Shown: positions 32,695 through 60,355 of the stretch, in pieces
Numbering within the stretch: position 1 is the first letter of the stretch
Layout: each line of letters opens with the position of its first letter
DNA from: Lysobacterales bacterium
Lineage (GTDB): Bacteria > Pseudomonadota > Gammaproteobacteria > Xanthomonadales > Xanthomonadaceae
DNA length: 64,000 nt
Assembly (NCBI GenBank): GCA_015655355.1
Contig: JAATFG010000017.1
Span: 19,054 to 83,053 of the forward strand
Direction of reading: 5' to 3'
Made by a program: the position numbers and the translations under genes
Notes under the pieces: generated by a model
Databases searched by the model: none
Told to the model about the DNA's origin: nothing
What the model saw: only the letters and a program-made list of their open reading frames with translations

Positions 32695-32769
32695 TGGTGG
32701 GCGATAGTGGTTTCGAACCACTGACCCCTGCCGTTTGAAGGAAGTGCTCTACAGCTGAGCTAATCGCCC
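32695..32769 (-). pseudogene. Degenerate tRNA-Val-like gene with CAA anticodon loop
   Basis: GGGCGATTAGCTCAGCTGTAGAGCACTTCCTTCAAACGGCAGGGGTCAGTGGTTCGAAACCACTATCGCCCACCA; acceptor and T-arm perfect, D-loop one nt short, one anticodon-stem mismatch. Confidence 0.55.
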
Positions 32770-45813: not shown

Positions 45814-45887
45814 TGGAGGCCTGGGTCGGAATTGAACCGGCGTACGCGGATTTGCAGTCCGCTGCATGACCACTCTGCCACCAAGCC
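45814..45887 (-). tRNA. tRNA-Cys(GCA)
   Basis: GGCTTGGTGGCAGAGTGGTCATGCAGCGGACTGCAAATCCGCGTACGCCGGTTCAATTCCGACCCAGGCCTCCA. Confidence 0.94.
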
Positions 45888-45939: not shown

Positions 45940-45991
45940 TGGTGCCCGGAGAGGGAATCGAACCCTCACTCCCTTGCGGGTGACGGATTTT
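45940..45991 (-). tRNA. 3' half of a split tRNA-Leu(UAA) (copy A)
   Basis: AAAATCCGTCACCCGCAAGGGAGTGAGGGTTCGATTCCCTCTCCGGGCACCA; acceptor strand TCCGGGC complements the 5' half at 47474..47508. Confidence 0.85.
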
Positions 45992-46279
45992 AAGCCACGG
46001 CATGGATTCCGCACCGGGTTCCTCTGTGCTTGGATATGGCTTGCTGTGGCAGGTTTTCCGTAAGGCCAAAAAAGACAGTAAGGCAAGCGAACCACTCGAC
46101 CGTCGGACTGCTGGCCCCCCTCGGTCAGCGCAGAGGGGGTAGCCCCGTCGCCAAACGACCTGAGCGACCGGCCTCGGGGGCTGGCAAGCCTGTGTGATCT
46201 GTGAAGAATCGTGGCGTCGAGGTCGCGAAAGGTCGCGGGAACAACTTGATGGGCGTGCAGCATATGCCGAGCTATTTCG

Positions 46280-46906
46280 TTATCGCGGCAAGGGTTTCGA
46301 CAACCGCGATCCGCGAGGCCACTGGATTAGTACCTCGCAAATAAGCACGGGTGCGATCCAATAGAGCCAGATGCCCGCCGTCACGCCTTCGATACCCAAG
46401 CTGGGAAACGGCGGCACCAGCTGCGCTATGCGGCAGCCGACGAAAGTCCACGTGACGACGTAACTTCGAATGACCCACTCACGATGATTGTCGAATCGTC
46501 GGTTCCAGGCGGCGCGCCACGCCATTGCGGCAAAGACGAGCCATACCATCGCCAAGGTCGCGGTCGCCACGCCGAGGCTGAAGGGCGGGTGGAACGGCCG
46601 CACCGAGAGGCCTAGAGCCGCTAGGGCGCCGACGGTGCCCCCGAGCAGATACGTGTACCCAATGGCTTTATGGGCGCGTCGGAACTTACGTGTCCATCCC
46701 ACGTAGATCGCGGCCGCCCCTGCTGCAAGCATGGCCGTTCCTCCGACGGTGTGCACATACAGGAGGCCATAGTGCCGAAGGTGTTCGCTCGCGCTGCGAA
46801 GCGTCAGTACAGGCCATGCATGGGTCCACCAGATCGCCGCCGAACTCAGCATGGCAAACGTGAGCAGCGCTCCAAAGGTCCACCCACGCGCTTTTGATCT
46901 GTTCAA
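46280..46906 (-). CDS. DUF2306-type multi-pass membrane protein (probable TTG start)
   Basis: Several TM segments; YVGWTRKFRRAHKAIGYTYLLGGTVGALAAL...; His-containing TMs. Confidence 0.75.
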   Translation of the reverse strand: MNRSKARGWTFGALLTFAMLSSAAIWWTHAWPVLTLRSASEHLRHYGLLYVHTVGGTAMLAAGAAAIYVGWTRKFRRAHKAIGYTYLLGGTVGALAALGLSVRPFHPPFSLGVATATLAMVWLVFAAMAWRAAWNRRFDNHREWVIRSYVVTWTFVGCRIAQLVPPFPSLGIEGVTAGIWLYWIAPVLICEVLIQWPRGSRLSKPLPR

Positions 46907-46988: not shown

Positions 46989-47306
46989 TGGTGCCCGAGG
47001 CCGGAATCGAACCGGCATGCCTTTCGGCGAGGGATTTTCTTGCCACTTCGGCTTTCGCCGCCGTCCTGCACATCGCTGGGCGTTCGTGGTCTGGAGCACG
47101 CCTTCACCATAGCCTTGCGGCCGCAGGTGCCCGCCGTCTGCTCTCTACACCTTCCCAAACGAACTGCTTGGGCTTGGCTCGGCGTTGGCTCGGACGCCGG
47201 AGCATCCAGGGCTTTCACCGACTTTGACGGGCTTCACTTCGGACGTTTCCACCCGAAGGCTCAAATTGTTCAAGTCCCTTGTGTCTACCGATTTCACCAC
47301 TCGGGC
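46989..47306 (-). tRNA. tRNA-Leu(UAA) interrupted by a group I intron (copy B)
   Basis: Exons GCCCGAGTGGTGAAATCGGTAGACACAAGGGACTT + AAAATCCCTCGCCGAAAGGCATGCCGGTTCGATTCCGGCCTCGGGCACCA form a perfect class II tRNA when joined. Confidence 0.93.
47039..47271 (-). ncRNA. Group I self-splicing intron (Azoarcus-like, 233 nt) in tRNA-Leu(UAA) anticodon loop
   Basis: Core blocks AACGCCGAGCCAAGC, AAGGTGTAGAGAGCAGACGGCGGGCACCT, GGCTATGGTGAAGGCGTGCTCCAG; P7 GAGCA/TGCTC; P1 CUU/GAG with U.G at 5' splice site; terminal G. Confidence 0.92.
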
Positions 47307-47473
47307 GCAGTGCGATGCGCTGGAAACTCCTGTCTCAGTCCTGTTGGCACCTGGTTGGCCCTTGACTGCCAAGCCAAGCCGCGAAGCTACATCTTCGACG
47401 CCCGCAAGCCGTTGTCACTATTGGCCTTCCGGCAGGGTAACGCAAGCGGAAAGAGCTTGACAAAACTGATTTT

Positions 47474-47508
47474 AAGTCCGCTGTGTCTACCAATTTCGCC
47501 ATCCGGGC
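47474..47508 (-). tRNA. 5' half of split tRNA-Leu(UAA) (copy A)
   Basis: GCCCGGATGGCGAAATTGGTAGACACAGCGGACTT; followed by non-tRNA sequence. Confidence 0.85.
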
Positions 47509-47641: not shown

Positions 47642-48409
<768 letters not shown>

Positions 48410-59179: not shown

Positions 59180-60190
59180 TCAGCGGTCCAGCGGGCTGAG
59201 CACGCCACCCGCGCCGCGATTGAGTACATGCGTGTAGATCTGGGTGGTGGCCACGTCCTTGTGCCCGAGCAATTCCTGCACGGTGCGGATGTCCGCGCCG
59301 CTTTCCAGCAAATGGGTGGCGAAGGAGTGGCGCAAGGCATGCGCCGACACGGGCTTGGCGATACCGGCGCGCATGCACGTGCCTTTCAGCGCGCGCGACA
59401 GCATGCCGTCGTCGAAATGATGGCGGCGCGCGATCCCGGCGCGCGGATCGCGCGAACGCCGCGGCGCCGGGAACAACCATTGCCAACCGAATTCGCGCGG
59501 CGCGCTCGGGTATTTGCGCGCCAGCGCATCGGGCAGCCAGACCGCACCGAAACCGGCCAGCAGGTCGGCCTCGTGCAGGACGCGCGCGCGTTCCACCTCA
59601 CGCTTCAGTTCGTCGGCCAGCCTCGCCGGCAACACCGTGCGCCGGTCCTTGCCGCCCTTGCCATCACGCACCACGATCTCGTTGCGGGCGAAATCCACCT
59701 CCTTGACCCGCAGGCGCAGGCATTCCATCAAGCGCAAGCCGCTGCCGTACAGCAGCGCCGCAAGCAGGCGTGGCCGTCCTTCCATCAGCGCAAGCAAGCG
59801 CCGCACCTCCTCGCGCGAAAGCACGCTCGGCACGCGCTGCGGACGCTTGGCGCGGACCACGTTCTCCATCCACGGCAAGTCGATGCGCAGCACTTCGCGG
59901 TACAGGAACAACAGCGCCGCCAGCGCCTGGTTCTGGGTGCTGGCGGCCACCTTGCCATGCACGGCCAGCGCGCTGAGGAAATGCTCGACCTCCGCCGCGC
60001 CCATCTCCCGCGGGTGGCACTTGCCATTGGCGAGGATGAAGCGACGAATCCAGCCAAGGTAGGCGCGCTCGGTGCGCAAGCTGTAATGCCGCGTGCGCAA
60101 AGCATCGCGCACCCGCTCCAGCAAACGTGGCGGCCTGCCCGATGTCACCCGAACCCGGCTTATTCCTGCGTTTTCGCCCTGATAAGACAT
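59180..60190 (-). CDS. intI: Integron integrase IntI (tyrosine recombinase)
   Basis: IntI-specific segment [101 protein letters not shown]; start MSYQGENAG. Confidence 0.97.
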
Positions 60191-60355
60191 ATCGCCCCAT
60201 CCGACTGGATATGCAAACCAGCATCCAGCTTCCGGCGACACACAACCATCATCCAAACCCGTGATCCGTGTAGGATTTCCCCGTTTGACACGTCCCACCC
60301 ATGCCCGCGACACTCCGCACTATCACCCCGTTTCGGGGTCTAATAGGCGTTAGAA
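60191..60355 (+). other. attI recombination region (junction G|TTAGAAC at 60349/60350)
   Basis: Intergenic region upstream of divergent intI ending in GGCGTTAGAAC; small hairpin ACCCCG-TTT-CGGGGT at 60325-60339; TTGACA at 60285-60290 is a weak Pc -35 candidate. Confidence 0.7.

Follow-up and report, generated by a model that had tools for sequence, protein, structure and literature searches.

The tRNA-Leu(UAA) gene studied here lies in a stretch of 64,000 nucleotides from a Lysobacterales bacterium (the window, from whose first letter all positions are counted). It is interrupted by a group I intron, and a second tRNA-Leu(UAA) 5' half, with 82% identity over 38 nt, is located 202 nt upstream of it. 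The question raised by this locus is why an intron-bearing tRNA gene should stand beside half of another gene for the same tRNA. The explanation that we favor, at a probability of about 0.78, is that the intron-bearing gene is the replacement brought by an integrative element for the resident gene that it split, and that the intron, positioned at the integrase core, hides this copy from the integrase. We consider the replacement of the resident tRNA to be established and place the masking at about even odds. A sequence-only reading had described the intron in terms that mostly hold up, and had mentioned neither the second 5' half nor the displaced 3' half belonging to it.

The intron and its group I core

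The gene is carried on the minus strand (47306-46989), a point on which the sequence-only reading was silent, and has the following parts (G and L numbers below are our handles for genomes and loci).

47272 to 47306, minus: 5' exon of the replacement tRNA-Leu(UAA), GCCCGAGTGGTGAAATCGGTAGACACAAGGGACTT, ending in C32 U33 U34 (sequence; ARAGORN on the joined exons)
47039 to 47271, minus: group I intron, 233 nt, terminal G at 47039 (covariation over 38 introns; Rfam Intron_gpI, 32.1 bits)
46989 to 47038, minus: 3' exon of the replacement tRNA-Leu(UAA), A35 to CCA, AAAATCCCTCG...GGGCACCA (sequence; ARAGORN on the joined exons)
47258-47252/47243-47237, minus: P2 (covariation, 38 introns)
47232-47226/47135-47129, minus: P3 (covariation, 38 introns)
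47221-47216/47184-47179, minus: P4 (covariation, 38 introns)
47143-47139/47098-47094, minus: P7, GAGCA/TGCTC (covariation, 38 introns)

The 3' exon follows directly after the terminal G of the intron (AAAATCCCTCGCC...GGGCACCA), which is inserted between U34 and A35 and splits CTT from AAAATC. When joined, the exons make up 85 bases that ARAGORN recognizes as a class II tRNA-Leu(taa) with a complete cloverleaf, in agreement with the perfect class II tRNA-Leu that had been predicted; the U34/A35 position, the 233-nt length and the terminal G can likewise all be read in the sequence. The intron-bearing gene in the window was called neither by ARAGORN nor by Rfam at its gathering score. Intron_gpI (RF00028), the covariance model that had been proposed as a check, did match within 901 bases (32.1 bits, E 3.2e-6) but fell short of the gathering score of 50. 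This score was reached at only 2 of 12 related loci and therefore misses the group to which the intron belongs. It was also too strict to serve as a homolog finder. The gathering score is a detection threshold and not a defining feature, and the miss is outweighed by the covariation test described below.

Because the Rfam score was weak, the structure was tested on relatives, which were gathered from whole-genome searches and by scanning genome and viral collections for an exact core pattern. Their exons were placed by an explicit cloverleaf search, as ARAGORN applied to every possible exon join was not discriminating, and 38 introns were aligned. The tested structure (P2, P3, P4, P5, P6, P6a, P7, P8 and P9) was drawn from the window's own sequence and counted on this alignment. 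Over 54 pairs, 90.0% of the cells were paired, compared with 73.2% after shuffling and 27-45% after the partners had been slid; changes on both sides were seen in 38 of the pairs, and the covariation score was 0.429 versus 0.148. All five P7 pairs form in each of the 38 introns, with compensatory changes in three, so the earlier suggestion that P7 has covaried is borne out, and the P3/P7 pseudoknot within the paired P3-P8 core is supported by covariation as well. The P1 pairing noted before can be seen in the sequence, with the CUU end of the 5' exon facing the guide GAG and a U.G at the 5' splice site, and the terminal G is invariant in 38/38 introns. Inspection by eye shows P2 and P9 with GAAA loops and no sign of P5abc, which makes the intron a candidate for subgroup IC3, marked by GNRA loops L2 and L9 and the lack of P5abc. 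As judged from the alignment, selection acts on the folding of this group I intron core; the functional ribozyme that had been proposed is likely, and the intron presumably splices in the cell.

Group I introns are also located in tRNA-Leu(CAA) genes (L011, L312 and L321), where C34 precedes the splice site, and thus P1 would have a C-G pair instead of the usual U.G.

A split resident gene and the element within it

The second 5' half and its surroundings can be described as follows.

50395-48461, minus: uvrC, host flank, upstream
48409-47708, minus: pgsA, host flank, upstream
47642 to 47717, minus: tRNA-Gly(GCC), host flank, adjoining the cut tRNA-Leu
47468 to 47508, minus: resident tRNA-Leu(UAA) 5' half, attL, cut in the anticodon loop, with the core CTTAAAATC at its end (junction shared by G004, G118, G312, G359, L077 and L099)
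47307 to 47467, minus: leader, left arm of the element's attachment site, 161 nt, with a degenerate arm-type repeat AGGGCC..AGGTGCC (aligned with 11 other leaders)
46280 to 46906, minus: DUF2306 membrane-protein gene, 208 aa (Pfam DUF2306, 3.2e-16), the sole gene remaining between the element ends
45995 to 46061, minus: right arm of the element, resembling those of the 62.6-kb (G004) and about 44-kb (G118, G359) elements
45940 to 45994, minus: displaced 3' half of the resident tRNA-Leu(UAA), attR, beginning with the core CTTAAAATC (rejoined halves are tRNA-Leu(taa) in ARAGORN)
45814 to 45887, minus: tRNA-Cys(GCA), host flank beyond the other side of the insertion

The resident 5' half reads GCCCGGATGG...GGACTTAAAATC, where its likeness to a tRNA ends, and the 3' half, CTTAAAATCCG...CTCCGGGCACCA, is found 1.48 kb away at 45994-45940. 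Their acceptor strands, GCCCGGA and TCCGGGC, form pairs between themselves and none with the intron-bearing gene, and the rejoined halves give a perfect tRNA-Leu(taa) of 87 bases with all stems in ARAGORN. Intact tRNA-Leu(UAA) genes in relatives are also 87 bases long and mostly stand beside tRNA-Cys and tRNA-Gly. Since the halves rejoin into a tRNA and the core is present at both cuts, we conclude that 1.48 kb was inserted into the anticodon loop and is bordered on either side by CTTAAAATC. No complete tRNA is present at either border; at the left end, the sequence past the core is not a tRNA 3' half, and hence the target was not rebuilt by an identity block. A complete tRNA-Leu(UAA) gene, the intron-bearing one, is located 161 nt from the core. 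Together with the leader, the DUF2306 gene and the short right arm, it makes up the insert, and neither an integrase nor conjugation genes were found within these 1.48 kb. As the right arm resembles those of full-size elements, the copy in the window must have decayed, with the loss of its integrase and of almost all its cargo.

The window contains two further features of note. A second tyrosine recombinase (Phage_integrase, Phage_int_SAM_4) of a different subfamily is encoded 12 kb from the intron-bearing gene (59183-60319, minus strand). ARAGORN also calls a tRNA-Leu(CAA) at 32695-32769 (minus strand), which at 75 nt has no long variable arm and shows an anticodon-stem mismatch; it resembles a tRNA-Val(CAC) with a changed anticodon and may be a pseudogene, an error or a recoded tRNA.

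The same element is present at full size in relatives. In G004, which belongs to the same genus, the same left end is found with the displaced 3' half 62.6 kb away (C13, 233.3-295.9 kb), and elements of about 44 kb are found in G118 (C1, 71.5-115 kb) and G359 (C1, 194-239 kb); in these three genomes, each 3' half that was displaced pairs with the 5' half from the same gene. At the right end in G004, G118, G312 and G359, a tyrosine integrase is encoded just inside the displaced 3' half. The integrase start is 195 bp from the displaced Leu half both in UAA versions (G312, G391, G118 and G359) and in CAA versions (G413 and G167). The latter two, with integrases at 69% and 61% identity, respectively, have displaced CAA halves and an intron-bearing tRNA-Leu(CAA), and integrase relatives at 64-68% identity are mostly without a Leu half and without the intron. 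In G391, whose assembly is in pieces, the integrase and the displaced half are present and the intron-bearing tRNA was not found. The integrase of G004 has Phage_integrase and Arm-DNA-bind_3 domains, and its element also encodes VirB4/TrbE- and TrbL-type conjugation proteins, a ParA-like protein and a Tn3 transposase. Integrase and intron occur together in 8 of 17 genomes with a close integrase, compared with the intron in 24 of 399 overall (Fisher p 8.6e-7, an indicative value, as these Lysobacterales genomes are mutually related).

In a Lysobacterales metagenome-assembled genome (MAG; L077) and in a MAG of the betaproteobacterium Hydrogenophaga (L099), leader and intron-bearing tRNA are nearly the same and the resident half is the host's own, from which it follows that one kind of element was inserted in different hosts. 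Paired AGGnGC repeats are found in 11 of 13 leaders by a strict pattern, versus 0.1% of random 230-nt segments. They are also present in the right ends, are degenerate in the window copy and look like integrase arm sites. A homology of the leader to a transposon end had been considered and was dropped once the core, the arm repeats and the integrase had been found. The exact left end of the window was found, among 369 genomes of the class, only in the window's own genome, and an element with this exact junction is therefore rare. In two Cupriavidus megaplasmids (L018:4000-4335 and L019:4001-4317), the same leader and tRNA-Leu 5' half are followed by an intron that is broken around P7-P3'; these copies are degraded left ends of the element and lie outside any tRNA gene.

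Two other accounts of the locus can be weighed at this point. Group I introns of subgroup IC3 are old and common at U34/A35 of cyanobacterial and plastid tRNA-Leu(UAA) genes, and many intron-bearing tRNA-Leu genes have no cut neighbor, so that the window could hold an ordinary chromosomal intron, inherited or horizontally acquired and unlinked to integration, next to an unrelated pseudogene half. However, the 3' half of this neighbor stands at the far end of the insert with the same core and rejoins with it into a tRNA, and both ends recur around full-size islands with one integrase (G004, G118 and G359). This account is contradicted for the window, and we regard it as very improbable. The window genome is a MAG of 138 contigs, which might raise the suspicion that the composite is an assembly artefact of the bin, but the same left end is found in independent assemblies of other species, including the single-contig G118 and G359, and the idea has almost no credibility.

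Distribution of introns and split residents

The expectation that such introns would be rare in proteobacteria was not upheld. The intron core pattern is present in 24 of 399 Lysobacterales genomes and in many alpha- and betaproteobacterial genomes, and a relative is present in 635 of 5,426 complete Escherichia coli genomes. Under a strict test, which required a half of the same isotype cut at the junction and outside any intact gene, a cut resident was located near 7 of 26 intron-bearing tRNAs in the order and near 13 of 81 from other genomes, one of the 13 (L073) being doubtful; none was found nearby for the other 19 and 68, respectively. Looser inspection adds L066, L143, L154 and L162. On viral contigs, the count was 0 of 53, and an unintegrated phage has no split resident. 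The isotypes with a cut resident include Leu(UAA), Leu(CAA), Lys(UUU), Ile/Met(CAU) and Thr(UGU), and their leaders are unrelated. In L063, L091 and L149, the intron-bearing tRNA has an integrase 32-65 bp away.

A pattern search of 101 relatives found exactly one intact tRNA-Leu(UAA) gene in each of 86 intronless genomes; the six genomes whose intron match was full-length yielded no intronless tRNA-Leu(UAA). No other tRNA-Leu(UAA) gene was found in the window genome, a MAG that is 94% complete with 7.5% contamination and could miss one. The replacement tRNA would thus probably be essential, and the intron-bearing copy would have been retained in the decayed element because it is the only tRNA-Leu(UAA) found. 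In G038, G061, G071, G088 and Azonexus L097, the intron-bearing tRNA is an ordinary-looking chromosomal gene (the G061 locus is identical to Pseudofulvimonas gallinarii NZ_SMAF01000013), and these genes may be products of element decay.

A 2014 review had reported phage introns in protein genes only (PMC3984707). Among the viral loci L180-L299, 53 intron-bearing tRNA genes were solved (Leu, Arg, Met/Ile, Lys, Asn, Gln, Glu and Thr). Phage LR756511 (595 kb; L021:2001-2785) has a tRNA-Leu(UAA) group I intron that is ~500 nt larger in P6, an expansion with an apparent HNH-endonuclease-like reading frame. The E. coli-type locus (L017:3995-4300 and L377:5001-5306) is an intron-bearing tRNA-Leu(UAA) that lacks annotation and is accompanied by an attP-like core and AGGTGC arm repeats; it is enclosed by IS26 copies, and DUF3883 and resistance genes are nearby. 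Of its 670 places, 589 are on plasmids, similar DNA is present in up to 1,280 plasmid records, and integrated elements in L076 and L179 are similar to the locus. Such genes escape tRNA and Rfam annotation, and consequently tRNA-dependent integration is under-counted.

Possible attachment-site masking and related systems

In the mechanism that we propose, a tyrosine integrase would recombine the 9-bp core CTTAAAATC in the attachment site of the element with the anticodon loop of the resident gene for tRNA-Leu(UAA), which would be split and not rebuilt, and the element would bring a complete tRNA-Leu(UAA) about 160 bp inside its left end, oriented with the host tRNA genes. At this distance from attP, the replacement gene is itself a possible target of the integrase. 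The group I intron would break this copy exactly at the integrase core (CTT / AAAATC), and self-splicing would restore the mature tRNA, so that the intron would be free of cost in RNA and the DNA of the copy would be no integrase target. With continued decay of the element, what remains would look like an ordinary chromosomal tRNA gene that contains an intron.

In G312, the exon junction of the replacement is identical to the reconstituted attB, evidently a site used by the element's integrase, over 21 bp (CAAGGGACTTAAAATCCCTCG), and in G359 the match is 20 bp; the intron cuts it after CTT. In the window, attP and replacement gene share only 9 bp, as in intronless phage replacements, and the copy might therefore be a poor target even without the intron. 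Seven intronless Gordonia and Mycobacterium phages carry replacement tRNAs that have 7-11 bp in common with the attP of the same phage; in Gordonia phage Daredevil, the one example with an intron, the overlap is 16 bp, a contrast of a single phage with seven that fits masking. When junction matches were compared with those of swapped loci, at least 14 nt were shared in 6/122 versus 5/750 and at least 12 nt in 11/122 versus 26/750, a modest signal because the control loci themselves contain such cores.

Daredevil (NC_048021, 41821-42131, minus strand of the record; L300:2871-3181) was reported without a tRNA of its own and appears to carry an intron-bearing one, an unannotated tRNA-Lys(UUU) with a 238-nt group I intron that adjoins the integrase and a 16-bp attP-like core. 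Its T54 is A and its plaques are clear, and hence this tRNA may be defective.

It is also conceivable that the replacement is real and the masking is not, the intron being a selfish passenger in a tRNA-Leu gene that the element acquired; intron and integrase would then both prefer the anticodon loop because it is conserved. The same introns occur in non-element tRNA genes, the known phage replacement tRNAs are intronless (PMC10865867) and the 9-bp overlap in the window is short, all of which would be expected of a passenger. Less easily accommodated are the recurrence of the layout across different leaders, isotypes and phyla, the 16 bp of Daredevil against the 7-11 bp of its intronless relatives, and exon junctions that equal used attB sites over 20-21 bp; we consider a mere passenger unlikely, if by no means negligible. 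Still less probable is that the intron guards the tRNA or the site against another threat, such as anticodon nucleases or competing elements directed at the same target. A role in blocking integration was proposed for archaeal tRNA introns by Randau and Soll, and it has been suggested that intron gain via a mobile element could exclude later elements (PMC3293823). However, no competing element or nuclease was tied to the loci studied here, and the exclusion of other elements would be the same masking mechanism and thus not fully separate from it. Masking from the element's own integrase may be the benefit for which the intron was selected. The broader proposition, that self-splicing introns serve integrative elements as masks of attachment sites and that decay of the elements fixes intron-bearing tRNAs in chromosomes, is one that we would neither favor nor disfavor; if true, it would explain part of the patchy distribution of bacterial tRNA introns. 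The hiding of an attachment site would give a tRNA intron a concrete, testable benefit. Element decay would provide a route to the fixation of such introns, one that the window catches half-way.

The locus links bacterial group I introns with tRNA-dependent integration, so far described for actinobacteriophages and ordinary tRNA genes. We found no open-access work on group I introns that also treats attP sites in tRNA genes or integrative elements of this kind, and priority is accordingly uncertain. The window's intron shares the gene, the U34/A35 site and the group I core with cyanobacterial and plastid tRNA-Leu(UAA) introns but, unlike these, is carried by integrative elements. As in the tRNA-targeting islands found by Islander (PMC4383910), there is a tyrosine integrase, a tRNA target and a displaced fragment at one end; those islands, however, rebuild the target from island sequence, whereas here the resident remains split and a second complete gene is supplied. 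In Caldiarchaeum, a tRNA-Thr 5' fragment lies 1.8 kb from an intron-bearing copy whose intron gain was ascribed to an integrating element (PMC3293823). That case is similar in its tRNA 5' fragment near an intron-bearing copy and in the implication of a mobile element, but it concerns protein-spliced archaeal introns at one locus in one population, with no group I intron. A close parallel to the arrangement described here is the tRNA-dependent lysogeny of Guerrero-Bustamante and Hatfull (2024), in which actinobacteriophages disrupt a tRNA gene and carry an intronless replacement (PMC10865867). In both systems, a presumably essential gene is disrupted without being rebuilt and the cure is carried by the element; here, in contrast, the carriers are proteobacterial islands, at least one of which has conjugation genes (G004), and a group I intron splits the replacement at the core.
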